Translations under genes and position numbers: made by a program | Notes under the pieces: generated by a model | What the model saw: the letters and a program-made list of their open reading frames with translations, nothing else | The model's database searches: none | Told to the model about the DNA's origin: nothing | Assembly (NCBI GenBank): GCA_949935795.1 | Contig: CATLFX010000025.1 | Span: forward strand, 1 to 37,463 | Direction of reading: 5' to 3' | Origin: an uncultured Oscillospiraceae bacterium | Lineage (GTDB): Bacteria > Bacillota > Clostridia > Oscillospirales > Oscillospiraceae | Length of the DNA: 37,463 nt | Shown here: positions 19,874 to 36,422 of the stretch, one piece after another | How the letters are laid out: every line of letters begins with the position of its first letter | How positions within the stretch are numbered: position 1 is the stretch's first letter

Positions 19874-19912
19874 TTGAAGAAATATTCACTGGGGAGGGAT
19901 GGCGGTGCGTGA
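19874..19912 (+). CDS. Possible 12-aa leader peptide
   Basis: TTG 19874 has a perfect AGGAGG seven bases upstream and reads MKKYSLGRDGGA-stop, overlapping the start of the next gene by 8 bases. It could couple translation into the 19905 gene, whose Shine-Dalgarno lies inside this frame. It may also be fortuitous. Confidence 0.3.
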   Translation: MKKYSLGRDGGA

Positions 19913-20405
19913 GGATGTTTCCGTCCGCCAGTGGCAGACAATGTACCGGATGGGCGCGTTCAACGACAAAGACAGATCCGTCCAGATCGAGGCGGGCTGG
20001 TACGACTGGTTCTGCCGGGACGAGTCCCTGGCGGGCCGGCTGAAGCAGATCGCACCCGTTGTCCTTGGCATCACTGACCCCTTCATCCTGGACAATTTCT
20101 ACGTCTGGTTCAAGAACAACTGCCCCTTAAACGGCCCGCTGTATGACGATGTGCGGTTCGAGCCCCTGTCCGGGGAGCGGAGCGGGAAATATTTCATGGT
20201 GACCAAGGACAGTCCCCATGAAAAGGCCAAGTGGGTGCTGTACACCGAGCGGTACGGTTTCCAGGAGCCGGAATTCCAGTGCGGCAATGTGCGTGACATG
20301 ATCCGCTACGTCAACCAGCTGGGGCCGGAGCTGCAGCGGGGCGCGCCCGATCCGCACCGCCATCTGCCGTCCAAGGCGCCCAGGCGGAAGGAGGCGGAGC
20401 GGTGA
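19905..20405 (+). CDS. Conserved protein of unknown function, first of a paralogue pair
   Basis: A 166-aa soluble protein. GTG 19905 is preferred because GGAGG is 7 bases upstream; ATG 19899 abuts it. Landmarks are VRQWQTMYRMGAFNDKD, AGWYDWFCRDESLAGRLKQI, DPFILDNFYVWFKNN and LYTERYGFQEPEF. All are repeated in the next gene, so the two arose by tandem duplication. No catalytic or metal motif is evident. It ends RRKEAER-stop with the next GTG overlapping (GTGA). Confidence 0.75.
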   Translation: MREDVSVRQWQTMYRMGAFNDKDRSVQIEAGWYDWFCRDESLAGRLKQIAPVVLGITDPFILDNFYVWFKNNCPLNGPLYDDVRFEPLSGERSGKYFMVTKDSPHEKAKWVLYTERYGFQEPEFQCGNVRDMIRYVNQLGPELQRGAPDPHRHLPSKAPRRKEAER

Positions 20406-21145
20406 GCACAGAGCAGATAACTGTCCGCCAGTGGCAGGAGAACTACCGGGCCGGAGCCTACAACGGCAGGGACATCGAGACACAGCGGGCGGCGGGCTGG
20501 CGGCATTGGTGCTGCCGGGGAGACGCCCTGGCCGGGCGTCTGAGGCTGATCGCGCCGGTGATCCTGGGTGTCAGCGACCCGCTCATCCTGGACAACTATT
20601 TCATTTCCTTGACGAACAACATCGGGCAGGAGGATCTGATATACGACTGTGCGGCGTTCCGGCCAGCGGATGGAGAAATCGGCGATATTCCATCCTTCGA
20701 AGTGCGCCTCGGCAGTCCGGGGCTGGACAGGTGGACGCTGTACACGGAGCGGTTCGGCTTCCGCACACCGGAGTTCAGCTGCGGCCACGTTCAAGATATG
20801 ACGAAGTACATCGACGCAATGGCCCCGGAATTGGAGCAGGGTGTGCGGCCAGCGATCCTGGACGAAAAACAGGCCGTGATGGAGTACATCCTGTTTTGGA
20901 ACTCCATCTTCCCCCTGGACCTGCGGCGGGAAGGAGAGCACAGCTACAGCTTTCTGGACCGGGACGATGGCCGGAGGAAAACCGTCCATGTGGCCGCCCG
21001 GCTGGAGAACGCGCCGCCCGGCTTCCAGGCGGAGGGGTCTGTGCGGATCAACAGGCTCTATGTGTCCTGTCCCGATGACCGCGCCAAGGAGGCCGTGATC
21101 TTACCCCCTAAAAAATCTCACAAAAAGAAGGAGGCCGAGCGTTGA
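20402..21145 (+). CDS. Conserved protein of unknown function, second of a paralogue pair
   Basis: A 247-aa protein. Residues ~5-140 align with the preceding gene (VRQWQENYRAGAYNGRD, AGWRHWCCRGDALAGRLRLI, DPLILDNYFISLTNN, LYTERFGFRTPEF). A C-terminal extension of ~100 residues carries a mixed alpha/beta pattern and a lysine-rich tail (KKSHKKKEAER-stop). The GTG start overlaps the previous stop; the Shine-Dalgarno AAGGAGG lies in the previous coding end. Function unknown. Confidence 0.75.
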   Translation: MSTEQITVRQWQENYRAGAYNGRDIETQRAAGWRHWCCRGDALAGRLRLIAPVILGVSDPLILDNYFISLTNNIGQEDLIYDCAAFRPADGEIGDIPSFEVRLGSPGLDRWTLYTERFGFRTPEFSCGHVQDMTKYIDAMAPELEQGVRPAILDEKQAVMEYILFWNSIFPLDLRREGEHSYSFLDRDDGRRKTVHVAARLENAPPGFQAEGSVRINRLYVSCPDDRAKEAVILPPKKSHKKKEAER

Positions 21146-21564
21146 ACGATAAGACCCGCGCAAAAGGGGCCGGTCCCCCCGGCAAGCCCGATCTTCCGCC
21201 CCAGGCGGAGGCGGAGATCATGGAGCGGCTGTACGCCGACATGAGGATCAGCTCCGGGGAGATCGCCGCTATTTTGAAAAAATATGACGTCTGCGGCGAT
21301 GTTCCTGCCCTCCAGGACAGCTATCGCAAGCGGCTGGGCCAGCGCCTGATGGCCAGCATCCGGGACGAGAGCGGCAAGCGGGAGGTGCTGGCCCACGGCA
21401 GCCAGTATGTGGTGGTGGAGTGCTGCAACGACCGCCAGGCGCTGCGGGCCATCCGCCGCCGCATCCAGGCGCAGATGGGCGGGCTGGACGTGTCCGCCGC
21501 CAAGGTCCAGGGCCGCATCCATGTGCTGGACCGGCTGTTGGCCCGGTTTAGAAGGGCGGCCTGA
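21142..21564 (+). CDS. Hypothetical helical protein (140 aa)
   Basis: TTG start overlapping the previous stop (TTGA), with AAGAAGGAGG upstream. The product looks mostly helical with many Arg and Ala. Segments include EAEIMERLYADMRISSGEIA and a basic C-terminal helix (HVLDRLLARFRRAA). It may bind nucleic acid, but no family was recognised. Confidence 0.65.
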   Translation: MNDKTRAKGAGPPGKPDLPPQAEAEIMERLYADMRISSGEIAAILKKYDVCGDVPALQDSYRKRLGQRLMASIRDESGKREVLAHGSQYVVVECCNDRQALRAIRRRIQAQMGGLDVSAAKVQGRIHVLDRLLARFRRAA

Positions 21565-21566
21565 CC

Positions 21567-21671
21567 ATGGGCTTTTGGAAAGACCTGCGGGCTGTGCTGG
21601 CCCGCCCGGACATTGTGCGTGAATTGGAGCTGGAGCATCATAAAAACGAAAAGCGAGGCGAAGCACGATGA
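21567..21671 (+). CDS. Microprotein (34 aa) ending in the shared junction
   Basis: ATG 21567, three bases after the previous stop, reads MGFWKDLRAVLARPDIVREL and continues to KRGEAR-stop. The stop overlaps the ATG of the next gene (ATGA). Its basic tail, Ala-Arg ending and overlapping stop/start are the same as at junctions of clearly real genes here. No obvious Shine-Dalgarno beyond coupling. Function unknown. Confidence 0.55.
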   Translation: MGFWKDLRAVLARPDIVRELELEHHKNEKRGEAR

Positions 21672-22858
21672 GCGGCATAGTGGAATTGAAGCTGTACAGC
21701 CCCCTCCAGGTGGACATCATCGACCGGGACACCCCCGGCCATGCCATCCCTTTTCAGGCGTTGGGCCGTGACCGCCTGGGAGAGTACACCGGGATGATCA
21801 TGAAGGCTTTTAGGGCGCTCCAGTCCCAGGAGGATGCCCGGGACGCCTTCGTCTCGCCGGACCAGGACTGGTCTGAGGTGTGTGACAAGATCGTGTCCCT
21901 CACCCGCACGGTGGAGGTGGTGGACGGCAGGCTCTACGGCGTTTATACCTGCCGGAGCCAGGGTGAACTGCGTCCGAACGAGCTGGATGACCTGGAGTGG
22001 TACTGCCATGATCAGTGGGAGAACGGCTGGGGCGAGGGCTACGCCTGCTGTCCCTGTGAAGGGGCCGGCCTGGGGCTGTATATCCACTTCTGGCAGGATG
22101 CCGATGGGCCGCTACTGGCCCGGGAGGAGCTGGAGGGGCCTCGGAGTGCGCCGCTGCTCGGGCCCGCTGTCACGGAGATCACGCCGGACACCTTCTGGAC
22201 CCTGCTGGACCAGGCCAGGACGGCCTGTGACGGCAGCCAGAGGGCGGCGGCGTACTGGCTGACAGAGCGGCTGATCAGTATGGGACCGGAACAAGTGATG
22301 CATTTTCACAGCATCCTGCACGGGTACATGGAGCTGGCGGATAAGTACGGGCTGTGGAACGCGGCCATCCTCATCCATGAGGACGGCTGTTACATCGATG
22401 GATTTGAGGACTTCCGGGCCTGGCTCATTTTCCAGGGCCGGGATACTTACCTGGCGGCACTGAGGGACCCGGACTCCCTGGCCGGTGTCCCCGCCAGCGT
22501 GGAGGAGGACTGCCGGTTCGCGGACTTGCCCTATGTGGGTGAGATGGCATACGCACGGCTGACAGGCCGTAACGCCTATGACGATCTCGACGCGGCCGGC
22601 CACCAGCGCATGGTGGCAGAGCTGAAGAAAGATATCGTGTACAGCGCGGGGATCGAGTATCCTCACGAGTGGTCCGAGATGGCCGCCTACCTCCCCCGCC
22701 TCACCGCCCAGCACACGACCCCGGAGGAGCTGCGGTCCCGCGCCCGCCGTGGCCCCATTTGGGACCGCAACGCCCCGGACATCCAGAGAGCGAGGGCCGC
22801 GGCTTCCAAGAAGCAAAAAACGAAAAACGGCAAAAAGAAGGGGGGCGAGACCCGGTGA
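21668..22858 (+). CDS. DUF4240-containing protein with an extra N-terminal domain
   Basis: A 396-aa protein. The C-terminal half (~165-350) is DUF4240-like: ITPDTFWTLLDQAR, then GFEDFRAWLIFQGRDTYLAA and DPDSLAGV. The family's function is unknown. The N-terminal ~160 residues form a separate domain with VEVVDGRLYGVYTC and a Cys-rich CCPCEGAG stretch, seen in no other gene here. The following gene is a single DUF4240 domain clearly related to this C-terminal half. The lysine-rich end is KKKGGETR-stop. Confidence 0.8.
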   Translation: MSGIVELKLYSPLQVDIIDRDTPGHAIPFQALGRDRLGEYTGMIMKAFRALQSQEDARDAFVSPDQDWSEVCDKIVSLTRTVEVVDGRLYGVYTCRSQGELRPNELDDLEWYCHDQWENGWGEGYACCPCEGAGLGLYIHFWQDADGPLLAREELEGPRSAPLLGPAVTEITPDTFWTLLDQARTACDGSQRAAAYWLTERLISMGPEQVMHFHSILHGYMELADKYGLWNAAILIHEDGCYIDGFEDFRAWLIFQGRDTYLAALRDPDSLAGVPASVEEDCRFADLPYVGEMAYARLTGRNAYDDLDAAGHQRMVAELKKDIVYSAGIEYPHEWSEMAAYLPRLTAQHTTPEELRSRARRGPIWDRNAPDIQRARAAASKKQKTKNGKKKGGETR

Positions 22859-23532
22859 GCGACACCATCACCGAGGTGAACAAGGACACCTTCTGGGCCC
22901 TCATCGGCCAGGCCAAAGAGCACCCGGGCGGCCCCGGCGAGTGGCTGATGGAACAGCTGGTGGATATGGGGCCGGAGCAGGCAAAGCGGTTTGACACCAT
23001 GGCGCGGGTGTACATGGACCTGGCCTATCAGTACGGCCTGTGGACCGCCGCCAGCGTGATGGAGCGGTACGGCTGCTCCGATGATGGGTTCATTGATTTC
23101 CGGGCCTGGCTGGTAGGCCAGGGCAAGGCTGTGTACATGGCCGCGCTGGCCGACCCGGACTCCCTGGCCGGCGCGGCGGACTATCAGGACCAGCGTTTTA
23201 GCTTCCTGCCCTATGTCGGGGACTGCGCCTACGAGGAGCTTACAGGCTGGGGCGCCTACCAGGACTTCGACCCCGCCGGGTACCAGGCGCTGAAAGCGGA
23301 GCTGGAGAGGGATATCGTGTACGGCGACGGCATCAATTACCCCTACGATCTGGCGGATATCCCCGCCTACGTCCCCCGGCTGTGCGCCAAGTACCTGACG
23401 CCGGAGCAGATCCAGGACCTGACCCAGTCCCGGGGCTGTACCTGGAACCTCACCAGCCCGGAGATCCTGGCGGCGCGTCAGAATGCGAAAAAAAGCGAAA
23501 AAATAAAGGACAAGAAAGGAATCGAACGATGA
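22855..23532 (+). CDS. DUF4240 protein (single domain, paralogue of the preceding gene)
   Basis: A 225-aa protein opening at GTG 22855 (overlapping GTGA), with AAGAAGGGGGG upstream. It aligns along its length with the C-terminal half of the upstream protein: EVNKDTFWALIGQAKEHPGG, GFIDFRAWLVGQGKAVYMAA, ADPDSLAGA and DIVYGDGINYPYD. The function of DUF4240 is unknown. It ends in KIKDKKGIER-stop, with the ParM-like start overlapping. Confidence 0.8.
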   Translation: MSDTITEVNKDTFWALIGQAKEHPGGPGEWLMEQLVDMGPEQAKRFDTMARVYMDLAYQYGLWTAASVMERYGCSDDGFIDFRAWLVGQGKAVYMAALADPDSLAGAADYQDQRFSFLPYVGDCAYEELTGWGAYQDFDPAGYQALKAELERDIVYGDGINYPYDLADIPAYVPRLCAKYLTPEQIQDLTQSRGCTWNLTSPEILAARQNAKKSEKIKDKKGIER

Positions 23533-24458
23533 GCGAAACGATCACGATTGGGGTGGATCACGGCTACGCAGCCATGAAAACCGCCCATTTCTCCTTCTCC
23601 ACCGGGCTGGTGGAGTACGCGCACGAGCCCTACACCCGGATGGATGTGCTGGAGCTGGACGGCAAGTATTATGTTGCCGGTACCGGCCGCCAGCCTCTCC
23701 AGAAGGACAAGACCGCCACCGAGGACTACTACCTGCTCACCCTGGCGGCCATCGCCAAGGAGCTGGACTACCGCCAGGCGGGGCCTGTGGCCACCGTCCA
23801 CCTGGCGGCCGGCCTGCCCCTTACCAGCTTCGGGCGGGACAAGAAGAAATTCAGAGAATACCTATTCCGGGACGGCAAGCCCGTCACCTTCCGCTACGAG
23901 TGGACGACCTACACTGTCACCATTGAGCGGGTGTCCCTGTTCCCCCAGGGGTACTCCGCCGTCCTCACCCAGCAGGACCTGCTGGACGAGCCCTCGGTCA
24001 TCGTGGCGGACATCGGGGGCTGGACGGTGGACCTCATGCGGCTGGACGGGCGCATCCCCAACGCCGCCGCCTGTCGGAGCCTGGAGCTGGGCATGATCCG
24101 CTGCCTGGACGAGACCGCCGAGCAGGTGCGCCGCTCCCTGGGGCTGTCTTTGACGGCGGCGCAGATCGAGAGCGTCCTGCGGGGCGATGTGAGCGGCGTG
24201 GACAGCCGGGCCAAGGAGATCATCCGCCGGGAGGCCGGGGCCTACACCCGCCGCCTGCTGTCCGCCATCGCCGAGAGCGGCCTGGACGCGCGGGCCATGC
24301 CCGCCATCTTCCTGGGCGGCGGGGCGGCGCTGATGCAGCGGCACGTTTCGGCCATAGACGGCCTTTGTCGGGCCCTAATTTTAGACGACGTATGCCTGAA
24401 CGCCAAGGGCTATGAGCGCCTTGTGGAGCAGATCTCCGCCCGTGTCAGCGATGGATAG
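23529..24458 (+). CDS. parM: ParM/StbA-like actin-family ATPase
   Basis: A 309-aa protein of the plasmid-segregation actin family. Phosphate-1 loop GVDHGYAAMK lies at ~8-17, phosphate-2 DIGGWTVDLM at 161-170, and the adenosine motif FLGGGAALM at ~261-269. ParM filaments push plasmid copies apart when capped by ParR bound to its centromere. ATG 23529 overlaps the upstream stop (ATGA). The next gene is a short protein with a ribbon-like N-terminus, fitting ParR. The gene symbol is by family only. Confidence 0.85.
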   Translation: MSETITIGVDHGYAAMKTAHFSFSTGLVEYAHEPYTRMDVLELDGKYYVAGTGRQPLQKDKTATEDYYLLTLAAIAKELDYRQAGPVATVHLAAGLPLTSFGRDKKKFREYLFRDGKPVTFRYEWTTYTVTIERVSLFPQGYSAVLTQQDLLDEPSVIVADIGGWTVDLMRLDGRIPNAAACRSLELGMIRCLDETAEQVRRSLGLSLTAAQIESVLRGDVSGVDSRAKEIIRREAGAYTRRLLSAIAESGLDARAMPAIFLGGGAALMQRHVSAIDGLCRALILDDVCLNAKGYERLVEQISARVSDG

Positions 24459-24756
24459 GCGGCGGCTGAACCTGTCCCTCTCCATGGCCTCGCCCCTCCA
24501 GCGGGAGGCGTGGGCCATCCTGTCCGCCATCCCCGCGGGCCAGCGGACCGACGCTGTTTGCCACGCCCTCTGCCGGGCCCACGATGAGGGCACCATGCTG
24601 GACGCCCTGCGGGCGGTGCTGCGGGAGGAGTGGGGCGGGGTCGGCTCAACAACAGAAAAGCCAGTGCAGGCGCGGGAGGCCGGGGATGTCGGGAGCGACG
24701 TCCTCGGCTTTCTGCTTGACCTGCAAAGCGATGATGAGACCGGGTTCGTGACATGA
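24451..24756 (+). CDS. Candidate ParR-like centromere-binding adaptor
   Basis: A 101-aa protein starting at ATG 24451 inside the end of the ParM gene (8-base overlap). The first ~50 residues (RRRLNLSLSMASPLQREAWA then helices to CHALCRAH) fit a ribbon-helix-helix pattern: basic strand followed by two helices. The C-terminal half is acidic and variable, as expected for a ParR tail that contacts ParM filaments. The assignment rests on position, size and pattern; sequence similarity cannot be tested here. GTG 24442 is an alternative start. Confidence 0.6.
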   Translation: MDRRRLNLSLSMASPLQREAWAILSAIPAGQRTDAVCHALCRAHDEGTMLDALRAVLREEWGGVGSTTEKPVQAREAGDVGSDVLGFLLDLQSDDETGFVT

Positions 24757-26162
24757 GAAAATATTTTATTTGGGGGTTTCCTGGCATCGGAAAATCCGCC
24801 GTAGATCCCAAATTCCGCATCGTAGACGCGGACTGTGAGCGTTTCAAATATGTGCTCCCGGCGGATGCTCCCGACAGCCCGCATTCGCTCCAAAACACAG
24901 CGTACACCCGGCGGGACCCGTCTTTCCCCCAAAATTATTGGGACTACGTTCACTCAGTGGATGCGGACGTGGTCCTGCTCAACTGCCACATCAGCTTGCT
25001 GGGCGCGCTGGACAGCGAACGGCTGCTGCTGGTCTACCCCTCCCCGGCTTTGAAAGAGGAATACCTGCGGAGATACGCGCTGCGGGGGGACAACGGGACC
25101 TACCTGCTCCATATGGAGGCCGCCTTTGACGGGATGGTGGCGGCGGTCAGAGCCAGTCCCTACAGAAAATATGAGATCACAGATCCGAATACTTATTTGC
25201 AAGATTTGATAGAAAAAGGGATGATCATGGAACAATTCATTACCAAGAAAGAGCTGGTGGACCTGCTGGGAAAATGCGTACAGCTGGGCGTCTACGCCCC
25301 GGAAGGGCCCGCCGCCGGGAAAACGCCGGACGAGCTGGCGCAGATGCTGTTTGAGGGGAGCCTCTCGCTGGACGTCGCCGGTCTGAAAAACGATCTGGCG
25401 GCCAGGCAGGCGGAACTGGACCGGGAGCGGCTCCTGCGTGATCGCAGGGGCGGCCTGAGCCATGAGGAACTGAGCGGCAGGATCATGGAGGGGATCGTGA
25501 ACGGCGCGCTGAACATACGCCACACCGATGTCGCGCCCTATTCTTTCGGCTATCAGGTGACGTTCCGATCCGCCAAGCATGGCGTTACCTATCGCTGTGC
25601 GTGCTACTGTTCCCTTCCGGATGTGCCGGAGGAAATCACCCGCAAAATCGAAAGCGGTACGCTGACGATAGACGTCCCGGACCTGCTGGCGGAGATTGGG
25701 TCGGCGGAGGAGCGCAAGATCAAATCTTTTGTTTTGGAGCGGGACTCCGGGCTCCAGCCCCGCGGCAGTTATACCGGCCATGTGGCAAGCGCCCGGGACG
25801 TCCATCGGGGGATCGCGCTGGACGGCATCATCCGGGGCCATTATCAAGGGGACTACAGCAGCATGACCACCGGGACGGAGAACGACACGGTGCGCGCGCT
25901 GGTGGCATTGAAGGGCTTCTGCCTGGACTGCCTCAATAAGCTGCCCTCGCGCCCTCTGATCGAGTTCGTCACGGCCTATCTGAAGGACCACGGCACGGAC
26001 GTCTCCACCCCGGAAAAGCTGAAAGATTGGATCAGGAGAAATCCCGATAAATGCGCGCTGCCCGAAAACCGTGAGCGTTTTTCGTCCTGTTTGGAGGCTG
26101 AACAGGCCGCTTTGGGGCAGAAACCGAAAAAGTCCAAACGGAAAAACCAGTGTGAACGATAA
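24753..26162 (+). CDS. P-loop nucleotide kinase-like protein fused to a long C-terminal region
   Basis: A 469-aa protein. Residues 1-~150 have a Walker A loop (GFPGIGKSA, 8-16), IVDADCERFKY, NYWDYVH and LLVYPSPALKEEYLRRYALR, the pattern of phage-type deoxynucleoside/adenylate kinase-like proteins. The following ~300 residues include a helical part (ITKKELVDLLGKCVQLGVYA), a possible Cys cluster (CACYC), and no domain I can name. The start overlaps the previous stop (ATGA). It is less GC-rich than its neighbours, suggesting separate acquisition. It ends KRKNQCER-stop. Confidence 0.65.
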   Translation: MRKYFIWGFPGIGKSAVDPKFRIVDADCERFKYVLPADAPDSPHSLQNTAYTRRDPSFPQNYWDYVHSVDADVVLLNCHISLLGALDSERLLLVYPSPALKEEYLRRYALRGDNGTYLLHMEAAFDGMVAAVRASPYRKYEITDPNTYLQDLIEKGMIMEQFITKKELVDLLGKCVQLGVYAPEGPAAGKTPDELAQMLFEGSLSLDVAGLKNDLAARQAELDRERLLRDRRGGLSHEELSGRIMEGIVNGALNIRHTDVAPYSFGYQVTFRSAKHGVTYRCACYCSLPDVPEEITRKIESGTLTIDVPDLLAEIGSAEERKIKSFVLERDSGLQPRGSYTGHVASARDVHRGIALDGIIRGHYQGDYSSMTTGTENDTVRALVALKGFCLDCLNKLPSRPLIEFVTAYLKDHGTDVSTPEKLKDWIRRNPDKCALPENRERFSSCLEAEQAALGQKPKKSKRKNQCER

Positions 26163-26177: not shown

Positions 26178-26204
26178 CCGGGGATGAATAGCGTCCCCGG
26201 TTTT
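26178..26204 (+). terminator. Terminator upstream of the cytosine methyltransferase
   Basis: CCGGGGA (26178-26184) pairs with TCCCCGG (26194-26200), nine-base loop, followed by TTTT. It overlaps the first possible ATG (26184) of the methyltransferase frame, which argues that translation starts downstream at 26223. Confidence 0.65.
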
Positions 26205-26222
26205 CTGCTGTTCCGTAAGACG

Positions 26223-27383
26223 ATGGAGGTGAAAAAGCATCTGATCCGCTATTTTGATATGTTCGCGGGCATCGGCGGGTTCCGGGCGGGCCTGGACCGG
26301 GCCGGAGGATTCCAGTGCATCGGGCACTGCGAGATCGACAAGTACGCCGACGCCAGCTACCGCGCCATCCACGAGATCGGAAAGGAGGAGGTCTATTATC
26401 CAGACGCCAGAGAAATTGACCCCGGAACTATGCCGGACTTTAATCTGCTCTGTGCCGGTTTTCCGTGCCAGCCCTACAGCCTCAGTGGAAAGCGCAGGGG
26501 CTTCGAGGACGCCCGAGGCACTCTGTTCTTTGAAATTGCCCGACTGGCTGAAGCCAAACGACCTGCGTTTTTATGTCTTGAAAATGTTCCCGGACTGCTT
26601 TCGCATGACCAGGGCCGGACGTTTCACGCCATCCTCACCACGCTTCATGAGCTGGGGTATGGTCTGGAATGGTCTGTGCTCAACAGCGCCAATTTCCACA
26701 TCCCCCAGTCGCGGCGAAGGCTGTTCCTTGTCGGATATCTTGATCCCCGATGCGCCGGAAAAGTATTTCCTCTCGGCGGAAATGACGGCAAAGCTCTTAT
26801 TCAACTCATCGGAGGCCCCCAGGGATACCGGGTCTACGACCCCAGCGGAGTAGCTTGTACGCAAACCTCCGGTTCAGGAGGAACGGGGGCCAAAACGGGG
26901 CTGTACCTGGTGGACCTGTGCGCCGGACACCCCCAGCCCAGCGAGATCGCCCGGTGCCTCACCGCCCGGTATGGGCAGACGACCCTGTCCACCCACCCCA
27001 GGGAGCGTTCCGGGGTGCTGCTGATCAAGGAGGCCACCAAGCGCGGCTACAAGGAGGCCAACCCCGGCGATTCCGTGGACCTGGGCTACTACGGGAGCAA
27101 TACCCGCCGAGGCCGGGTGGGCCGGGACATCGCCCACACCCTGGAGACCAGCAGCATCCAGGGCATCGTGGAGCGCGGCGGGCGCATCCGCCGCCTGATG
27201 CCCCGGGAATGCCTGCGTCTCCAGGGCTTCGCCGAGGATCAGATCGACCGCCTGCTGGCTATCACCTCGGACGCCCAGGCGTACAAGCAGGCCGGCAACA
27301 GCGTCACCGTCAACGTGATCGAGGCCATCGGGCGGCGCATCCGGGCGGTGGATGAGGAGCTGAGAGGGGGCGCGGCGGCGTGA
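26223..27383 (+). CDS. DNA cytosine-C5 methyltransferase
   Basis: A 386-aa C5-methyltransferase with the full motif set: I DMFAGIGGF (12-20), IV with the catalytic Cys in GFPCQPYS (Cys82), VI ENV (120-122), VIII QSRRRLFLVG, the target-recognition region, and IX/X (RECLRLQGF, then QAGNSVTVNVI). It transfers methyl groups from S-adenosylmethionine to cytosine in DNA. No restriction endonuclease lies next to it, so it probably protects the element from host restriction. ATG 26223 avoids the terminator; GGAGG inside the first codons suggests that an even later start is possible. Confidence 0.9.
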   Translation: MEVKKHLIRYFDMFAGIGGFRAGLDRAGGFQCIGHCEIDKYADASYRAIHEIGKEEVYYPDAREIDPGTMPDFNLLCAGFPCQPYSLSGKRRGFEDARGTLFFEIARLAEAKRPAFLCLENVPGLLSHDQGRTFHAILTTLHELGYGLEWSVLNSANFHIPQSRRRLFLVGYLDPRCAGKVFPLGGNDGKALIQLIGGPQGYRVYDPSGVACTQTSGSGGTGAKTGLYLVDLCAGHPQPSEIARCLTARYGQTTLSTHPRERSGVLLIKEATKRGYKEANPGDSVDLGYYGSNTRRGRVGRDIAHTLETSSIQGIVERGGRIRRLMPRECLRLQGFAEDQIDRLLAITSDAQAYKQAGNSVTVNVIEAIGRRIRAVDEELRGGAAA

Positions 27384-28608: not shown

Positions 28609-29113
28609 CGGTTCCCTTTATTTTGCGTATGGCTCAAATATTAATTTGGAACAGATGGCCCACCGCTGCCCCGACGCCCAGGTGGCGGGTCCGGTGAAGC
28701 TGGAGGGCTGGGAGCTACTGTTCCGGGGCAGCGGAGTTGCCACCATCGGCCCCAAGGAGGGCGCCGCCGTCCACGGTCTGCTGTGGCAGCTCACCCCGGA
28801 CTGTGAGCGGTCCCTGGATCGCTACGAGGGCTATCCCCACCTCTACGTCAAAGAGCCGGTGACGGTGCGGGACGCCCAGGGGCAGGAGCTCACGGTCATG
28901 GCCTACGTCATGACGGAGCGGTACCGGGCCCCCGCTGTGCCGCCCGCGTCCTATTATCAGGGCATCCTGGAGGGCTACCGGCAGAACGGCCTGCCGGTGG
29001 CGGCCCTGGAAAAAGCCTGGGAACAGGCTGTGCGGGAGGTCCATGAGTACACCAGCCGGATCAACGGCATGGCCGTCAAACAACATGAGAGGAGGAAGCG
29101 TGATGAGCGGTAA
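28601..29113 (+). CDS. Gamma-glutamylcyclotransferase-like protein (GGCT/AIG2 fold)
   Basis: A 170-aa protein with the GGCT nucleotide of conserved motifs: FAYGSNI (YGSN at 10-13), GPVKLEGWEL, and the catalytic Glu at ~76 in LDRYEGYP, then Y.KE.V.V. These enzymes release 5-oxoproline from gamma-glutamyl amines. Paired with the amidoligase it could reverse or trim a gamma-glutamyl tag. ATG 28601 overlaps the previous stop. It ends HERRKRDER-stop with the next ATG inside (11-base overlap). Confidence 0.8.
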   Translation: MADGSLYFAYGSNINLEQMAHRCPDAQVAGPVKLEGWELLFRGSGVATIGPKEGAAVHGLLWQLTPDCERSLDRYEGYPHLYVKEPVTVRDAQGQELTVMAYVMTERYRAPAVPPASYYQGILEGYRQNGLPVAALEKAWEQAVREVHEYTSRINGMAVKQHERRKRDER

Positions 29114-29498
29114 GATCAGGGTGCTCGTGGCAGAGCCGGGGAAGCCCTGCCAGGCGCGGGAGGTGGAGGATGAGCTGAAGGCCCTCCAGGCCCTCGTGGG
29201 CGGGAGCATCGAGGTCGTGACATCCTCTGCGGAGGATATCGCCATCGTGTGCAACGAGGAGGGAAAGCTGTGTGGCCTGCCCCCCAACCGCCCTCTGCTG
29301 GGCCCTTCCGGCCAGCCCTATGACATCCTTTGCGGCACATTCTTCATCACCGGAGTCCAGGGGGAGAGCTTTGCCTCCCTCACTGATGAGCAGATCGGGC
29401 GGTTCAGCTCCATGTACGACGGCATGATGCTTCGCACCGCCGAGCCCCAGGAGAAGCGTCCTGAAAAGAAAAAGGGAGGTGTCGACCACGAGAGATGA
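29103..29498 (+). CDS. DUF3846 protein
   Basis: A 131-aa protein with the DUF3846 core: IRVLVAEPGKPCQAREVEDE, LKALQALVGGSIEVV, then the conserved DIAIVCNEEGKLCGLPPNR and DILCGTFFITG. Function is unknown; members are common on Clostridia and actinobacterial phages and ICEs, often near anti-restriction genes. ATG 29103 lies inside the end of the GGCT gene. The C-terminus is lysine-rich (KKKGGVDHER-stop). Confidence 0.8.
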   Translation: MSGKIRVLVAEPGKPCQAREVEDELKALQALVGGSIEVVTSSAEDIAIVCNEEGKLCGLPPNRPLLGPSGQPYDILCGTFFITGVQGESFASLTDEQIGRFSSMYDGMMLRTAEPQEKRPEKKKGGVDHER

Positions 29499-29525: not shown

Positions 29526-30272
29526 ATGGGCAGGCCGCTCCACATCGCCGGCTGTTCATTTGGCAAGGACAGCTTAGCGGCCATTCTGCTGGCCAAAGAG
29601 CATGGCGAACCGCTGGATGAGGCGGTGTACTGTGAGGTCATGTTTGACCGGGACATCTCCGGCGAGGTGCCGGAGCACCGGGACTTCATCTACAGCACCG
29701 CTATCCCTGCCCTGGAGCGGATGGGGGTGAAGGTGGTGGTGCTCCGCTCGGAGCAGACCTATGTGGGGCTGTTCACCGGGCGGGTGACCCGAGGGAAGCG
29801 GAAAGGCATGGTGCGTTCCTTCCCCCTGTGCGGCAAGTGCGCCGTCCAGCGGGATTGCAAGGTCAAGCCTCTGGAACGCTACAAGGAAACGCTTCCTCCC
29901 GGGACGGTCCGGTACATTGGAATCGCCAGTGACGAGCAGGACCGCCTGCTGCGGCTGGACGGGGCCCAAAAAATATCGCTGCTGGAAAAATACGATTACA
30001 CAGAACAGGACGCGAGGAGCCTCTGCGAAAAAGCGGGGCTTCTCTCTCCGATTTATGAGTTTTCCGACCGGGGCGGCTGCTGGTTCTGCCCCAACGCCAA
30101 ACGGCGGGAACTGCGCCACCTCTACGATCACCACCCGGACCTGTGGGCCCATATGCTGGAGCTCCAGGCCATCCCGGGCAAGGCCACCGAGAAGTTCAAC
30201 CGCACCCAGACCTTCGCCGACATCGACCGGCTGTTTCGGGAGGAGGATGGGCAGATCCCCAAAGCGGCGTAG
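29526..30272 (+). CDS. PP-loop ATPase / PAPS-reductase-like protein
   Basis: A 248-aa protein with the PP-loop SFGKDS (11-16) typical of adenine-nucleotide alpha hydrolases. Two cysteine clusters (CGKCAVQRDC and CWFCP) could bind an iron-sulfur cluster or zinc. PAPS-reductase-like proteins on mobile elements include DndC-type DNA sulfur-modification enzymes and others of unknown role. No dnd partners are present, so its substrate is open. The start is ATG 29526 or GTG 29520. It is followed by a 128-bp gap, ending the preceding overlapping gene group. Confidence 0.75.
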   Translation: MGRPLHIAGCSFGKDSLAAILLAKEHGEPLDEAVYCEVMFDRDISGEVPEHRDFIYSTAIPALERMGVKVVVLRSEQTYVGLFTGRVTRGKRKGMVRSFPLCGKCAVQRDCKVKPLERYKETLPPGTVRYIGIASDEQDRLLRLDGAQKISLLEKYDYTEQDARSLCEKAGLLSPIYEFSDRGGCWFCPNAKRRELRHLYDHHPDLWAHMLELQAIPGKATEKFNRTQTFADIDRLFREEDGQIPKAA

Positions 30273-31212: not shown

Positions 31213-31407
31213 ATGGCAAAAATCAAAAACTTGAACGGCTACGAAACCTGTGTTCACAGCCAAAAGCGAAAAAGCGCCCCCTGGCGGGTGACCGCAGGCT
31301 GTGATAACCGGGCGGTCCTGTTCACGGGCAGGCACTACGAGTTACCCAATTCCAGCATCTGCGTGACCTGTCCATTTTACCACCAAAGCGGGGCGAGTTC
31401 AACATGA
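31213..31407 (+). CDS. Hypothetical small Cys-containing protein (64 aa)
   Basis: ATG 31213, GGAGG five bases upstream, giving MAKIKNLNGYETCVHSQKRK. Four Cys and several His are present (TCVH, GCDN, CVTCPFYH), so metal binding is possible. The stop overlaps the next ATG (ATGA). It begins a short run of three AT-richer small genes (to 31950). Confidence 0.6.
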   Translation: MAKIKNLNGYETCVHSQKRKSAPWRVTAGCDNRAVLFTGRHYELPNSSICVTCPFYHQSGASST

Positions 31408-31950: not shown

Positions 31951-31958
31951 GGGGCAGT

Positions 31959-32591
31959 ATGACAAACCAAAAATATGAAATTACCGATATTGTCCACGGG
32001 GAATACCCCTTTCTCCACCGCGTCCGGGCCCTGCGGGACATCGGGACGAACGTGAAGGCCGGGGACCTGGGCGGCTTTGTGGAGCACGAAGGCAACCTGT
32101 CCTTCGAGCCGGGGGACGACGCCTGGGTTTGCGACGAGGCCATCGCCGCCGGGGACAGCGTGGTGGAAAAGGGCTCCGTCCTGCGGGGCCGGGCCGTTGT
32201 CTGCGGCAGCGCCTGTGTCTCCCACGGCTCTGTGCTGTTCGGCGACGCCAGGGCCGAGGACGATGCCTATCTGCGGGGAGCCACCATGTGGGGCTGCGCC
32301 AGGGCCTCCGGGGCCAGTGTGACCGTGGCCTCGCCGGACGATCCGGCCCGCGCCCCCAGGCTGTCCGGCAAATGCTGTGTGTACGGAAAAGTCATGGGCG
32401 ATGTGCATCTGCTGGGCAGCGCCGTGGTCATCAGCGGCGAGGAGGTGTGCAACACCACCCCGGACGGCCTAATCCTGGATGGGAAAACGCGGACGGTGGC
32501 GCGCTCCTCTGCCCGGGATGTGCTTCGCCCCCGCCAGCCGGAGGAGACGGCGGAAAAGAAAAAATCAAAGCATAGGGAGGCGGTCCGATGA
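31959..32591 (+). CDS. Beta-helix (hexapeptide-like) mobile-element protein, first of a pair
   Basis: A 210-aa protein. The N-terminal signature YEITDIVHGEYPFLHRVRAL, RDIG, KAGDLGGFVEHEGNLSFE is typical of a phage and prophage family. It is followed by degenerate short repeats (VVEKGSVLRGRAVVCGSACV, GSVLFGDARAEDDAYL) that form a left-handed beta-helix in related sequences. Function is unknown; binding or structural roles have been suggested by fold only. It ends KKKSKHREAVR-stop, overlapping the next ATG (ATGA). Confidence 0.75.
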   Translation: MTNQKYEITDIVHGEYPFLHRVRALRDIGTNVKAGDLGGFVEHEGNLSFEPGDDAWVCDEAIAAGDSVVEKGSVLRGRAVVCGSACVSHGSVLFGDARAEDDAYLRGATMWGCARASGASVTVASPDDPARAPRLSGKCCVYGKVMGDVHLLGSAVVISGEEVCNTTPDGLILDGKTRTVARSSARDVLRPRQPEETAEKKKSKHREAVR

Positions 32592-33226
32592 ATCCAGGCA
32601 ATCAAAAGTTTGAGATCACGGACATCGCCCACCCCGAGTACCCCTTCCTCCACCGCATCCGGGCCCTGCGGGATATTGGCCCCACGGTAAAGGCCGGGGA
32701 CCTGGGGGGATTCGTGGAGCAAGAAGGCAACCTGTCCTACGAGGACAGGGACTCCTGGATCGCCCACGACGCCATCGCCGCCAACGGGGCGTTCGTGACG
32801 GATGGGACTCTTGTGCGGGATCAGGCGGTGATCTGCGGCGAGGCCCGCGCCTATAGGGCCGTGTTGTCCGGCCGCGCCAGGGTGGAGGATCATGCCCGTG
32901 TGGACGGCGGGCGGGTGGAGAACTGCGCCCGGCTGTCCGGTCACGGGATGGCCGCCGCTATCACACCGTCCAAGTACCCCGTCCTCTCCGGCGAGTGCAT
33001 CGTCCACGGCATTGTGAAGGGCAATGTGCTGGTGATCTCCCATGCGATTGTGCTGGGCGATGAGAAGATCGTGAACGAGGCCCTGGACCGTCTGGTGGTC
33101 ACCGAGCACGGCCGCGTCATCGAACTCAGCCCGGACCGGGACAAGCTGGTGCCCAGCGCGGTGTATTTTGGGTATGACCCGCCGAAACGGAAACAGAAGC
33201 ACAAGCGAGAGGGGGCGGAACGGTGA
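32588..33226 (+). CDS. Beta-helix (hexapeptide-like) mobile-element protein, second of a pair
   Basis: A 212-aa paralogue of the preceding gene, with the same N-terminal signature (FEITDIAHPEYPFLHRIRAL, KAGDLGGFVEQEGNLSYED) and short beta-helix repeats (TLVRDQAVICGEARAYRAVL, SGRARVEDHARV). The C-terminal third differs. It ends KRKQKHKREGAER-stop, with the next GTG overlapping. The gene pair arose by tandem duplication. Confidence 0.75.
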   Translation: MNPGNQKFEITDIAHPEYPFLHRIRALRDIGPTVKAGDLGGFVEQEGNLSYEDRDSWIAHDAIAANGAFVTDGTLVRDQAVICGEARAYRAVLSGRARVEDHARVDGGRVENCARLSGHGMAAAITPSKYPVLSGECIVHGIVKGNVLVISHAIVLGDEKIVNEALDRLVVTEHGRVIELSPDRDKLVPSAVYFGYDPPKRKQKHKREGAER

Positions 33227-33699
33227 GCAATTTCTTTGAGCAGGAGCTCCGCAAGCTGTTCGAGGACGGGCAGGTCGTCCCGTCCCCCAAATTCGTGGGC
33301 CGGGCCTGCCTGGGGGACCTGGGAGGCGACCTGCGGGTGCGGGCCGAGTTCGTGACCACGGACATGGGTTACAGTGAGGCCCTGCGGCTGACGGTGCTGA
33401 AGCGCACAGACGGTGAAGTGGACCGGCTCGTCCTGGGTTTCCGGGACGTGATCGGGATGAAGCAGAGCTCCACCGACCCCAAATTATCCAGTGAGGTGTC
33501 GCCCTGCATTCGGAACAACTACGGGACAATAGAGTGGTATCCATTCCAGCCCGCCGATGCCGACTACCAGGCTCTGCGCAGGGCGGCAGGCGATTACCTG
33601 GAGATGTTCCGGGAGCGCACACCGGAGCAGGAGTGGCCCGCGCCCGTCCGAAGATCTCCCGGGCGTTCGGCATCCAGGAAAGGAAGGGATGAACGGTAA
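33223..33699 (+). CDS. Conserved hypothetical protein (158 aa)
   Basis: The GTG start overlaps the previous stop (GTGA); GAGAGGGGGCGGAAC carries the Shine-Dalgarno. MSNFFEQELRKLFEDG opens the chain, then a beta-rich core (LRVRAEFVTTDMGYSEALRL, VDRLVLGFRDVIGM) and IEWYPFQPADADYQALRRAA. A Pro/Arg-rich tail ends SRKGRDER-stop. The family seems common on Clostridia elements, but its function is unknown to me. Confidence 0.7.
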   Translation: MSNFFEQELRKLFEDGQVVPSPKFVGRACLGDLGGDLRVRAEFVTTDMGYSEALRLTVLKRTDGEVDRLVLGFRDVIGMKQSSTDPKLSSEVSPCIRNNYGTIEWYPFQPADADYQALRRAAGDYLEMFRERTPEQEWPAPVRRSPGRSASRKGRDER

Positions 33700-34067
33700 T
33701 GGATCAGAATGATATGCTGCAGATGCGGTTGGATCAGAACTACACGGACTATGTGGCAGGGCTCCAGGGCAAGACCGCCGACGAGCTGATCGCGCTGGCC
33801 CCGGAGATCACCGCTGCCCAGCAGCTCCGGGACGAGCTGGCCGACGCCTGCTCAGATGAAAGCCTGGACTTTCTGCTCGGCTTTGAAGATCCGCTGGGGT
33901 TCGTGGTGGACTATTGGAAAGCGGAACTTATGCGGGACAGCCACAGCGATGAGATCGGGCGTATGCTCTGGGAGGTCGAACGTCAGGGGGAGGTCCTTGC
34001 GCCCACACCGCCCCGTCCTCCGGCAAAACACACGCCGCCCCGCCTGGGGCGGGGCCAAGAGAGGTAA
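33699..34067 (+). CDS. Small acidic-core protein, DUF3848-like (122 aa)
   Basis: The ATG overlaps the previous stop (TAATG). A helical N-terminal region (QMRLDQNYTDYVAGLQ, ADELIALAPEITAAQQLRDE) is followed by DFLLGFEDPLGFVVDYWKAE and a Pro/Arg-rich tail. The layout resembles DUF3848 proteins from Clostridia elements, but I cannot confirm this without a search. It ends RGQER-stop. Confidence 0.6.
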   Translation: MDQNDMLQMRLDQNYTDYVAGLQGKTADELIALAPEITAAQQLRDELADACSDESLDFLLGFEDPLGFVVDYWKAELMRDSHSDEIGRMLWEVERQGEVLAPTPPRPPAKHTPPRLGRGQER

Positions 34068-34069
34068 AT

Positions 34070-34666
34070 ATGGTAAAACAAATCACGACCGACGACCTGC
34101 GCCGCATGGGCGGCCAGGAGGGCATCATCCTCCAGGGCTGCGGCGGCGACCCCCAGGAGTGGGTGGACGGCATCAATGAGCTGTTCGCCGAGGCCGGCAT
34201 ACTGCTGAACGGCAGCGCCTTCAAAGCCGAAAATGTGTCCCTCTTCCAGAACGGAGAGCTGACCTGTCTGCTGTTCCCCTTCGAGGGGGTGCAACTGGAC
34301 GCGGGCAGGCTGGCCGTGTGGCGCATCCAGACCCATGGGCAGTTCGGCGGCACTTGGCTTTCGGATCATGTGTCCAACAAGCTGGGAGGTTTTGTTCAGG
34401 AGGAGTCCCCCGTCCCCGCCAAGCCCTCCATGGAGCTGCTGGGCCACGACGGCAACATCTTCTCTATTATGGGCCACGCCGCCAAGCTGCTGCGGCGGGC
34501 TGGTATGGCTGAGCAGAGCGAGGAGATGGTGGAGCGCGTCACCGCCTGCGGAGACTACTATAAAGCCCTCCATATCATCAGCGAATATGTGGATACGGAA
34601 CTCTCCGACCACACAAGCCCCCAAAAATCTCAAAAAAAGAAAGGAACTGACGCCTATGAACGTTGA
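34070..34666 (+). CDS. Conserved mobile-element protein of unknown function (198 aa)
   Basis: Landmarks are EGIILQGCGGDPQEWVDGIN, LTCLLFPFEGVQLDAGRLAV, WRIQTHGQFGGTWLSDHV, LLGHDGNIFSIMGHAAKLLR and CGDYYKALHIISEYVD. These make up a widely distributed protein of gut Clostridia elements whose function is unknown. ATG 34070 follows the previous stop by two bases with AAGAGAGG upstream. The lysine-rich end KKKGTDAYER-stop contains the next ATG (11-base overlap). Confidence 0.75.
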   Translation: MVKQITTDDLRRMGGQEGIILQGCGGDPQEWVDGINELFAEAGILLNGSAFKAENVSLFQNGELTCLLFPFEGVQLDAGRLAVWRIQTHGQFGGTWLSDHVSNKLGGFVQEESPVPAKPSMELLGHDGNIFSIMGHAAKLLRRAGMAEQSEEMVERVTACGDYYKALHIISEYVDTELSDHTSPQKSQKKKGTDAYER

Positions 34667-35384
34667 CCCCCGCTGGGAACTCATCCACGGCGATTCCCTG
34701 AAGCTGCTGCCGGGGTTCGCCCCCGGCTCCTTCGACGCCGTCATCACCGACCCGCCCTACGCCTCCGGGGGCCGCACCCAGACGGAGAAGAACAAGTCCA
34801 CCGCCAAAAAGTATTCCAGCATGGGTGCCGCCGCCCTCCCCGACTTCGACGGCGACGCCAAGGACCAGCGGTCCTGGACCCGCTGGGCGGCAGCGTGGCT
34901 GGCCGACGCCCGCCGCGCCTGCAAGCCAGGCGCCCCGGTGTGTATGTTCATCGACTGGCGGCAGCTCCCCGCCGCCTCGGACGCCCTCCAGTGGGCGGGC
35001 TGGATCTGGCGTGGCACCGCTGTGTGGGACAAGGGCAACTCCCGCCCCCAGAAGGGCCGGTTCCGCCAGCAGGCGGAGTACATCGTGTGGGGCTCCAACG
35101 GCGATATGCCCATCGACCGCCCCGTCCCCTGCCTGCCCGGCGTCTTCAAGTACGGCAACCCCCAGCACCGCATCCACCTCACCGAGAAGCCCCTGCAACT
35201 CATGCGGGACATCGTGCGGATCACCGAGCCGGGGGGCCGCATCCTGGACCCCTTCGCCGGGTCCGGCACCACCGTGCTGGCCGCTGTGCTGGAGGGCTAC
35301 ACCGCCACCGGCATCGAGATGAGCGACGAGTACGCCCGCCGGGCCGTGGAGCGGATCGAGGCCGAGCTGAGCCAGGCGGCGTGA
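34656..35384 (+). CDS. Beta-class DNA amino-methyltransferase (N6-adenine or N4-cytosine)
   Basis: A 242-aa enzyme with the catalytic motif DPPY at 32-35, preceding the S-adenosylmethionine motif DPFAGSGTT at ~198-206; this order defines the beta class. WELIHGDSLKLL at the start and EKPLQLMRDIVRI before motif I also fit. It would methylate DNA, probably as self-protection; no nuclease gene is adjacent. The short target-recognition part lies at ~50-150. ATG 34656 lies within the previous gene. Confidence 0.88.
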   Translation: MNVDPRWELIHGDSLKLLPGFAPGSFDAVITDPPYASGGRTQTEKNKSTAKKYSSMGAAALPDFDGDAKDQRSWTRWAAAWLADARRACKPGAPVCMFIDWRQLPAASDALQWAGWIWRGTAVWDKGNSRPQKGRFRQQAEYIVWGSNGDMPIDRPVPCLPGVFKYGNPQHRIHLTEKPLQLMRDIVRITEPGGRILDPFAGSGTTVLAAVLEGYTATGIEMSDEYARRAVERIEAELSQAA

Positions 35385-35462
35385 GCTGTGTGGCGATTGT
35401 TCTGGATATTGCGGAAAGGGTGCGGTATGATGTGGGCTACCAAATCTGAGGAGGTGCACGAT

Positions 35463-35765
35463 ATGAAAGTAACGTTTTCCTTTGACGAGGCCGCCGTCAC
35501 GCGGCGGGGCCGCAGGCGGGAGGATGTGCATCAGACGGTGAAGGGCCTGTTCGCCGCCCACGATCTCCCCTGCACCGTTGATGGCGACACCCTGTCCTTC
35601 CAGGACAAGGGCCACGGCGACGACTTCGCCTGTATGTGGGACATCATCCTGGCCCTGCTGCGCTCCGAGTGGTTCATGGAGTGCGTTGCCGCCTGCGTCT
35701 GGCAGGACGAGGGCGGCGAGGAGGATGTGCTTGCCCAGGCCAGGGATGCTGTGCGGCATGGGTAG
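35463..35765 (+). CDS. Hypothetical protein encoded upstream of VapD-like gene (100 aa)
   Basis: ATG 35463 with GAGGAGG upstream. MKVTFSFDEAAVTRRGRRRE opens a small alpha/beta chain; the core is FAAHDLPCTVDGDTLSFQDK and WDIILALLRSEWFMECVAAC. No family recognised. The 3' end overlaps the VapD-like start by 8 bases, so it is a candidate partner or antitoxin on position alone. Confidence 0.65.
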   Translation: MKVTFSFDEAAVTRRGRRREDVHQTVKGLFAAHDLPCTVDGDTLSFQDKGHGDDFACMWDIILALLRSEWFMECVAACVWQDEGGEEDVLAQARDAVRHG

Positions 35766-36153
35766 CAGGAAGCAGATCACCTTCGATCTGAGCTTGGAGG
35801 CGTTGAGACAGCACTATCCCCATAAAGAGGGGGCCCAGGACCCGCAGTTTTTCAAGCGGGCCTACAAGGACATCCAGCGGTTCATGGCCACCCACGGTTT
35901 TGAGCGGGGGCAGTATTCCGTGTACGTTTCCAAGGAGAAGATGACCGCCCTGGATGTCGCCGTCCTGACCCAGAGCATGGCGGAGCAGCTCCCCTGGCTG
36001 CGTCAGTGCGTCAAGGAGATCACGGCGACCAGCGTCGGGGCGCGGCATAGCCTGCTGGGGCTGCTGCGCTCCGACGCCCCGCCCGTGGAGCTCCTGACGC
36101 CGCCCGCTCACAGGGAGCGGGCAAAAAACAGGAGCGCCCTGGAACGGAGGTAG
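35758..36153 (+). CDS. VapD-like endoribonuclease
   Basis: A 131-aa protein matching the VapD pattern. A first strand (KQITFDLSLEALRQHYP) is followed by FKRAYKDIQRFMATHGFERG, QYSVYVSKEKMTALDVAV and MAEQLPWLRQCVKEITATSV. VapD has a ferredoxin-like fold related to Cas2, and characterised members cut RNA. The C-terminal ~30 residues are an added Pro/Arg-rich tail. ATG 35758 is inside the upstream gene. It probably acts in plasmid maintenance or stress; no canonical VapX antitoxin is visible. Confidence 0.75.
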   Translation: MGSRKQITFDLSLEALRQHYPHKEGAQDPQFFKRAYKDIQRFMATHGFERGQYSVYVSKEKMTALDVAVLTQSMAEQLPWLRQCVKEITATSVGARHSLLGLLRSDAPPVELLTPPAHRERAKNRSALERR

Positions 36154-36170
36154 TAGGGATAGAACATAAT

Positions 36171-36422
36171 ATGAACTGGTATATCAGCCTGCTGAACCGT
36201 GCGCAAGCCTATGAATATACGTCGTATCCGTATACATACGAAAACTTGGAGCGGGCGAAAATCATCAAAGAATTAAGGAGTTCGCTTCGGAAACTGCTTG
36301 ACGAAAACGAAAAACAGGCGGCAGAAATTGCGGAGCTGAAGGAGCATTTAGAAAAGGCGCGGAAATCCAACGGAAAATCTGCGGCAAAGAGAAAAAAAGG
36401 AATGTATGAAAATGAGCGGTAA
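36171..36422 (+). CDS. Coiled-coil small protein (83 aa)
   Basis: MNWYISLLNRAQAYEYTSYP opens a Tyr-rich start. It is followed by a heptad-like coiled coil (LRSSLRKLLDENEKQAAEIA) and a lysine-rich tail (AAKRKKGMYENER-stop). It is AT-richer than its neighbours. It may oligomerise or serve as an adaptor. The Shine-Dalgarno is weak (AGGG). Confidence 0.65.
   Translation: MNWYISLLNRAQAYEYTSYPYTYENLERAKIIKELRSSLRKLLDENEKQAAEIAELKEHLEKARKSNGKSAAKRKKGMYENER

Follow-up and report, generated by a model that had tools for sequence, protein, structure and literature searches.

Why do the products of unrelated genes on a single mobile element end in the same way? The question is raised by a stretch of 37,463 nucleotides (nt) from an uncultured Oscillospiraceae bacterium (hereafter the window; contig C25 of a 2.2-Mb genome in 70 contigs that is about 70% complete), in which a first-pass annotation had listed 14 protein tails with a shared ending and two more, ending at 5335 and 18855, outside that train; all of them are present where they had been placed. 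The gene content of the window is that of an integrative conjugative element, with genes for SSB, an actin-like partition protein, DUF6017, a sortase, a large surface protein ending in LPKTGY, a DUF3991/TOPRIM primase, an amidoligase, a gamma-glutamylcyclotransferase-like protein (GGACT), DUF3846, DUF4240 and DUF4314 proteins and two DNA methylases. In relatives, a similar gene order continues into genes for a relaxase (PF03432), DUF3801/PcfB (PF12687) and a VirD4-type coupling protein (PF02534). The answer that we favor is that the shared tail probably serves as a C-terminal address tag by which a class of Clostridial integrative conjugative elements marks proteins for their type IV secretion system (T4SS).

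Comparison with the host confirmed that the shared endings are real and far above chance. Genes were called with our own gene finder (a dicodon model with start scoring), except in annotated phage and plasmid records, and a protein was scored as tagged if its last residue was Arg and at least 3 of the preceding 11 residues were Lys or Arg; a separate patch count required at least 4 Lys or Arg among the 11 residues before the last. Beyond 17 kb, the window holds 30 called genes, of which 16 end in Arg, 13 end in Glu-Arg, 13 have the patch and 15 satisfy the tag rule. The corresponding numbers for 384 genes of the host control (400 kb of the same genome, taken as 20 stretches from 18 other contigs) are 30, 1, 26 and 11, and those for 653 genes in 39 related loci are 301, 164, 253 and 267 (locus L025, whose amidoligase is 100% identical to that of the window, was excluded). 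The patch and the terminal Arg are coupled, as 214 of 243 patched element genes end in Arg versus 5 of 26 in the host. Over 400 kb of one Oscillibacter contig there are two separate elements, in which 36 of 83 genes are tagged; in the remainder the count is 10 of 284. Equal frequency at host gene junctions, which the first-pass annotation had named as the outcome that would count against a special feature, was looked for and not found: among 60 overlapping host junctions one upstream gene ends in Arg, and none ends in Glu-Arg or satisfies the tag rule.

One possibility is that the shared peptide is a mere translation of the Shine-Dalgarno sequence and start of the next gene. Overlapping start and stop codons with an embedded Shine-Dalgarno sequence constitute translational coupling, and this arrangement is present at many of these junctions: AAGGAGG followed by GTGA, ATGA or TTGA occurs at several of them in the window, and a Shine-Dalgarno-like sequence lies in the last 30 nt of 109/133 overlapping tagged genes. 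Such a sequence is, however, also found in 91/143 overlapping untagged genes of the same elements. Nor does coupling predict the tail where genes do not overlap, and the distribution of tails among protein families and junctions speaks against it. For this comparison, 775 element genes were reduced to 661 at 95% identity and clustered (longer stretches of genome took the place of five relatives, L028, L030, L036, L053 and L061; L025 was again excluded). The families with at least 4 members, to which the split is confined, are bimodal, with 18 tagged in at least 60% of their members, 21 tagged in at most 15% and none between; over all junction types, 234 of 268 members of tailed families are tagged versus 4 of 266 in untailed families. 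Within the tailed families the tag is kept at 4-nt overlaps (56/70), longer overlaps (64/67), gaps of 1 to 20 nt (45/49), gaps of 21 to 100 nt (30/35) and gaps exceeding 100 nt (20/24), as well as in genes that have no same-strand neighbor (15/19), a class that mixes true ends, locus ends and missed genes. Since small downstream genes could have escaped the gene finder, a second reading was made of the 78 genes of tailed families that had a gap of more than 20 nt or no called neighbor; 3 lie at the end of a locus, 41 have a possible 30-codon frame near the stop (36 of them tagged) and 34 have no 30-codon frame starting near the stop, and 27 of these 34 are tagged. The embedded ribosome-binding site was rejected as the sole cause of the tails, which persist at distant and absent starts.

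The identity of the protein also governs tagging when the downstream gene is held constant, since a given downstream gene may have a tagged or an untagged upstream neighbor depending on what that neighbor is. A gene's own family accounts for 0.78 of the variance in tagging and the downstream family for 0.57, but we rely on the junction counts instead of these shares because the two are confounded by gene order. By these counts, the tail is a property of particular protein families, and the idea of a common C-terminal tag, one of those put forward in the first-pass annotation, is strongly supported. The same annotation had stated that the tail also occurs on genes that the next gene does not overlap. 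That observation holds for the genes ending at 5335, 18855, 26162 and 36422, but not at 29103 and 34656, where the apparent gaps are 11-nt overlaps: the next gene starts within the tail, and the codons for Asp-Glu-Arg or Tyr-Glu-Arg and the stop also encode the next ATG and Ser or Asn.

The suggestion that the DNA explains part of the shared ending was sound, in that the embedded Shine-Dalgarno sequences and starts are real, but their contribution is secondary. Glu occupies position -2 in 50 of 55 tails at 11-nt overlaps, where it is co-encoded with the next start, and in 22 of 59 tails at 4-nt overlaps, so the overlap shapes the wording of the tail and not its presence; in the class with gaps of 1 to 20 nt, 41 of 51 tails have Glu at this position. 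Codon usage is likewise unfavorable to coupling as the cause. The terminal Arg is encoded by AGA, CGA, CGG, AGG, CGC and CGT, the Arg codons within tails include 243 CGN versus 162 AGR, and among the purine-only codons those for Lys (729) far exceed those for Glu (162) and Gly (109). Since the terminal Arg codons vary and Lys is so greatly in excess, the tail is not merely a purine-rich stretch. Together with the near absence of tags at overlapping junctions of the host and of phages (3/78 in the latter), these observations make coupling as the origin of the shared peptide highly improbable.

The tail adds some 13 residues to the protein and is polar, poor in hydrophobic residues and rich in Lys and Arg from -5 to -13. 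Averaged over the tailed families, Arg has a frequency of 0.91 at -1 and Asp or Glu of 0.64 at -2, positions -3 and -4 are mixed, Lys and Arg together range from 0.42 to 0.63 between -5 and -11 and fade by -14, and hydrophobic residues are depleted. The tail is thus positively charged and located at the extreme C-terminus, as would be expected of a C-terminal T4SS translocation signal.

An alternative explanation at the level of DNA is that the junctions are a standard joint, a cassette of short homology that allows genes to be exchanged at their ends. Gene neighbors do vary, and there are three tandem pairs of paralogs in the window (19905-21145, 21668-23532 and 31959-33226) in which each copy has a tail of its own. 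Sequences of 8 nt common to tails of different families are mildly more frequent than in synonymous-codon shuffles (155 versus 106, reached by 4% of shuffles). Longer homology is not seen, given that shared 10-mers number 19.4 versus 14.1 (reached by 17% of shuffles) and shared 12-mers 1.49 versus 1.77; nothing here points to a joint at which homologous exchange would occur. Moreover, the tail stays with its gene when neighbors differ, and untailed families in the same operons also change neighbors. The swap-joint proposal in the first-pass annotation is not supported by these comparisons, and a recombination joint or gene-cassette site was rejected as a candidate, with no DNA identity beyond that imposed by the peptide at k = 10 and 12; we regard such a joint as very unlikely.

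Phage homologs of the tailed proteins offer a view of the same folds outside the conjugative elements. In phages of related hosts and others, homologs of four tailed families have no tail in any of 18 cases: amidoligase 0/6 (all ending in Ala-Ala), GGACT 0/5, DUF3846 0/4 and phrog_5070 0/3 complete proteins. The amidoligase and GGACT counts do not extend to those phage hits that are short fecal scaffolds lacking annotation, such as H1, H2 and H5. In five such phages, 7 of 243 plus-strand coding sequences (CDS) are tagged, which is about the host rate; some very small CDS were left out of this count, as was L108, whose amidoligase end was used. These homologs end before the tail, which by sequence is therefore located outside the conserved portion of the fold and separable from the folded domain. 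The order DNA methyltransferase, amidoligase and GGACT is the same in gut phages (Ca. Heliusvirales; L105-L107, L109 and L110) as in the conjugative elements. Among the element proteins, tags are found on 254 of 594 soluble proteins, 6 of 67 membrane-like proteins, none of 6 coupling proteins and none of 11 LPxTG-type proteins; as would be expected of a T4SS signal, the tail sits on soluble proteins and not on the membrane-inserted machinery or exported proteins. In the element type of the window, members of the relaxase family are tagged in 9 of 10 cases and those of DUF3801 in 6 of 9.

The reach of the tail was assessed in other Clostridia through DUF3801. A search of 118 genomes gave 37 matches, and 20 regions of 24 to 40 kb were read, with long and short forms of DUF3801 separated by open-frame length and with flanking chromosome included in the regions. 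In the six regions where a long DUF3801 occurs together with a VirD2-type relaxase, 8/40, 11/35, 4/40, 6/42, 9/34 and 12/35 genes are tagged. Of 13 regions with a short DUF3801, 10 hold 0 or 1 tag and the other three 7/42, 4/41 and 5/40. The tag rule and the predictions were then fixed beforehand for new genomes of the order, in which 10 of the 18 new long-DUF3801 regions above the cut-off had room on their contigs and were read, along with 5 short ones. In the ten long-DUF3801 regions, 94 of 350 genes are tagged (5 to 11 in each) versus 21 of 687 chromosomal genes (p = 2.5e-29, a value that is indicative only because genomes and families are not independent samples). Two genomes that have both kinds of element provide internal comparisons of long with short, namely 12/35 versus 1/30 in G014 and 11/35 versus 1/28 and 0/37 in G053. 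These counts, which are drawn from predicted genes, place the tail mainly in elements whose DUF3801/PcfB is long, and the same regions hold VirD2-type relaxases and VirD4-type coupling proteins; the coupling proteins of relatives match PF02534 or belong to the CD1115 family of VirD4, and none is encoded on the window contig itself.

Elements in annotated records show by name which proteins are labeled. In the Monoglobus pectinilyticus element (NZ_OY725736.1), 11 of the 39 CDS with a readable stop are tagged, comprising ParA, ParB, an SNF2-related protein, a DUF3991/TOPRIM primase, DUF3846, the relaxase, PcfB and four unnamed proteins, while VirD4, VirB4, PrgI, the sortase, a CHAP protein, MobC, TnpV and sigma factors are untagged. 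A Bacilli plasmid, from Cohnella herbarum (NZ_CP051681.1), has tags on 4 of 27 CDS read, including the primase, and its relaxase and PcfB are untagged. Features read numbered 41 of 42 for the Monoglobus locus (L298), two of them without a stop in the listed range, and 27 of 40 for L299.

The T4SS-address reading is favored because soluble element proteins carry a separable basic C-terminus, with the relaxase, partition proteins and primase included and the membrane machinery excluded. We infer that the tail is a translocation signal, which would entail binding by VirD4 or PcfB and entry into the recipient. On the donor side, the tail's free basic end would be bound by the coupling ATPase VirD4, possibly by way of an acidic region at the VirD4 C-terminus, or by PcfB as an adaptor, and the bound protein would pass through the conjugation channel. 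The relaxase, the primase and ParA/ParB, the last two being tailed in other elements of the class, would reach the recipient with the DNA, as would the giant SNF2-related protein and small anti-defense or host-takeover proteins. Enzymes that lack the tail, such as MetK, the PAPS-reductase-like enzyme and the DNA methylases, would do their work in the donor. At overlapping junctions, the presence of the next gene's Shine-Dalgarno sequence and start within the tail codons reflects packing and is not what causes the tail. ParA and ParB are reported to be among the protein substrates of the F plasmid.

Several known systems bear a likeness to this arrangement. According to a review, positively charged C-termini act as signals for VirB/D4 systems, a consensus Arg motif is mentioned for such signals, and VirB/D4 recruits a MobA relaxase by way of the last 48 residues of the protein (PMC10025392). 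VirD4-type coupling proteins have C-terminal regions rich in Glu and Asp (PMC7434980). The Agrobacterium VirB/D4 signals (PMC10025392, citing Vergunst et al. 2005) resemble the tail in that both are charge clusters near the C-terminus, borne by several proteins that are unrelated to one another but belong to a VirD4-type system. The tail differs in occurring in Clostridia, in at least 18 families of one element type, and in having a defined end (acidic at -2, Arg at -1). The F-plasmid conjutome also involves a conjugation system that delivers proteins to recipients, but the F signals described in sections of that report are C-terminal or internal and varied (PMC11288057), in contrast to one common C-terminal motif here. 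Polyvalent proteins of conjugative elements and phages, including Tn1549-like ones, are accompanied by T4SS genes and share domains with the proteins considered here (YodL, ArdA and Toprim primase), and the consulted part of that work proposes that they act early after invasion; a text search for a shared basic C-terminal tail gave one unrelated hit in it (PMC5512222). No report of such a shared tail was found in searches of an open-licence literature library, a body of text that leaves most subscription papers uncovered.

A number of observations weigh against the T4SS-address reading. No secretion gene was recognized on the window contig, and the link to secretion comes from syntenic relatives. 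SSB and the ParB-like protein in the element type of the window, and MobC in Monoglobus, are untailed. In many elements, tagged as well as untagged, the last 25 residues of the coupling protein have an acidic charge, and an acidic coupling-protein tail was accordingly dropped as a discriminator of element types. For the F plasmid, transfer of the four proteins tested was not significantly altered when their positively charged C-termini were truncated (PMC11288057). A third genome with both kinds of element, G040, has little contrast (8/40 long versus 5/40 short), and a weak, long-framed DUF3801 match of 336 codons in G092 lies in a region with only 2/24 genes tagged. Short-DUF3801 elements are themselves tagged in 22/461 genes of the first set and 18/131 of the new set. 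Among relaxases drawn from across Clostridia, 9 of 28 readable loci are tagged, a count in which a few readings may be wrong since the longest frame on the strand was taken, and two relaxase loci and one DUF3801 locus were unreadable. A second flavor of tail, rich in Lys and ending in D/E-x-S/T/E-L, had appeared in 23/461 short-DUF3801 genes versus 6/687 by a rule made after looking, but the prediction of it failed the fixed test, at 3/131 versus 12/687 with a slightly wider rule. Finally, ordinary proteins also satisfy the tag rule, an example being one that resembles ribosomal protein S9 (..AARRAPQFSKR).

The main rival is a protein-level tag with another job on the donor side, whereby the tail binds the element DNA, the relaxosome or the membrane pole, or controls stability, and the protein either does not cross or merely accompanies the DNA to which it is bound. 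Nucleic acid binding is a general trait of basic tails, and many carriers, such as the relaxase, ParA, ParB and the primase, are DNA related. Carriers such as the amidoligase, GGACT and DUF4240 have no evident DNA role, however, and several DNA proteins (SSB, the ParB-like protein and the DNA methylases) lack the tail. In addition, a fixed Arg at -1 preceded by an acidic residue fits recognition of a free C-terminus better than it fits plain charge. We consider this rival a serious but lesser possibility.

Another candidate role for the tail is that of a substrate for an enzyme pair of the element itself, since the window encodes both an amidoligase and a gamma-glutamylcyclotransferase and the tails are Lys-rich with Glu at -2. 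By blastp, however, just 1 of 35 other element regions has the amidoligase, which shows that the tail does not go with this enzyme; the other 15 of the 16 long-DUF3801 regions lack it and hold 4 to 12 tags each. With tags present in elements that have no amidoligase, this candidate was rejected, and we give it almost no credence.

If the T4SS-address reading is correct, the tail would read out directly which proteins enter the recipient. It would give a candidate list of delivered proteins, many of unknown function (including DUF3846, DUF4240, DUF4314 and YodL), provide one simple sequence for testing, and explain how unrelated proteins are recruited as co-travelers by addition of a short tail. 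The broader proposal, to which we give slightly better than even chances, is that a large class of Clostridial conjugative elements uses one C-terminal address to label a whole set of unrelated soluble proteins, which in a single element type come from 18 families or more, and that the T4SS of the element delivers them; this would amount to a general secretion code for Gram-positive conjugation.

The tailed genes of the window, like all the genes described below, are on the forward strand. A small open reading frame of 70 codons (5123..5335, tail KRDKGRER) was not called by the gene finder, but is probably a real gene because it matches, by eye, a tailed gene of an Oscillibacter element. It is followed by the DUF3991/TOPRIM primase (6755..7699, PPRERGR) and by the DUF4314 protein (18559..18855, GRGGQER), for which the next start is 79 nt downstream. 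An unknown protein (19905..20405, RRKEAER), whose stop is overlapped by the GTG of the next gene, precedes its paralog (20402..21145, KKKEAER), and a DUF4240 protein (21668..22858, KKKGGETR) likewise precedes a DUF4240 paralog (22855..23532, KDKKGIER). The phrog_4182 protein (24753..26162, KRKNQCER) is not overlapped, the next called gene being at 26184. In the Amidoligase_2 protein (27380..28351) the tail RRKKRDRNAER is appended beyond the conserved part. GGACT (28601..29113, ERRKRDER) has the start of the DUF3846 gene (29103..29498, KKKGGVDHER) within its tail. Two paralogs of the phrog_5070 family (31959..32591, KKKSKHREAVR; 32588..33226, KHKREGAER) are followed by unknown proteins at 33223..33699 (RKGRDER) and 33699..34067 (LGRGQER), the latter of which fails the strict tag rule but belongs to a tailed family. 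A protein with a phrog_1933 match (34070..34666, KKKGTDAYER) contains the next start (34656) within its tail. The last two are an unknown protein of a fully tailed family (35731..36153, NRSALERR; 8/8) and an unknown small protein (36171..36422, KRKKGMYENER), downstream of which no further gene was called.

Untailed families in the window include those of SSB (17239..17616; 0/16), the ParB-like protein (17616..18569; 0/18), which was so labeled by eye and has no Pfam match, the actin-like protein (23529..24458; ALP_N, phrog_691 partition protein; 0/18), the C5 cytosine DNA methylase (26184..27383; 0/23), which ends in AAA, and the N6/N4 DNA methylase (34656..35384; 0/12). The family of the PAPS-reductase-like protein (29526..30272; phrog_424) is nearly untailed (2/23). 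The two methylases and the PAPS-reductase-like enzyme end in Ala-Ala, as do 6/6 phage amidoligases. The large surface protein (10480..17175) ends in LPKTGY, a sortase-type end, and is untailed. The sortase (8712..9566) ends in LER, which was not counted as a tail because the neighbors in the corresponding position of three related elements have other endings. Neither an Rfam scan nor a tRNA scan of the window gave a match.

Start-like sequences, GTGAACGATAA or ATGARCGGTAA, occur within tails at 26152, 33689 and 36412 and open frames of only 6 to 11 codons; these uncalled starts are perhaps a relic of an earlier neighbor. The Monoglobus pectinilyticus locus also contains predicted tet(O/32/O) and tet(40) genes, with no tail at the end of the listed range, which holds no stop. 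A protein of 541 residues with a weak relaxase match ends in ..RRKEQSHER in G040:C6, G053:C18 and G077:C1 (L169, L143 and L171), and no other gene in the G053:C18 region is tagged. Some ArdA and DUF3801 proteins (ArdA loci L252, L253, L259, L264 and L267; regions G031C13, G014C5 and G036C3) have Lys-rich ends followed by D/E-x-S/T/E-L or similar, examples being ..KPVKEDISL, ..KKPREETL and ..KDRGQSL. Three short ArdA proteins, which we take to be Tn916-like, end in ..FEIVY.

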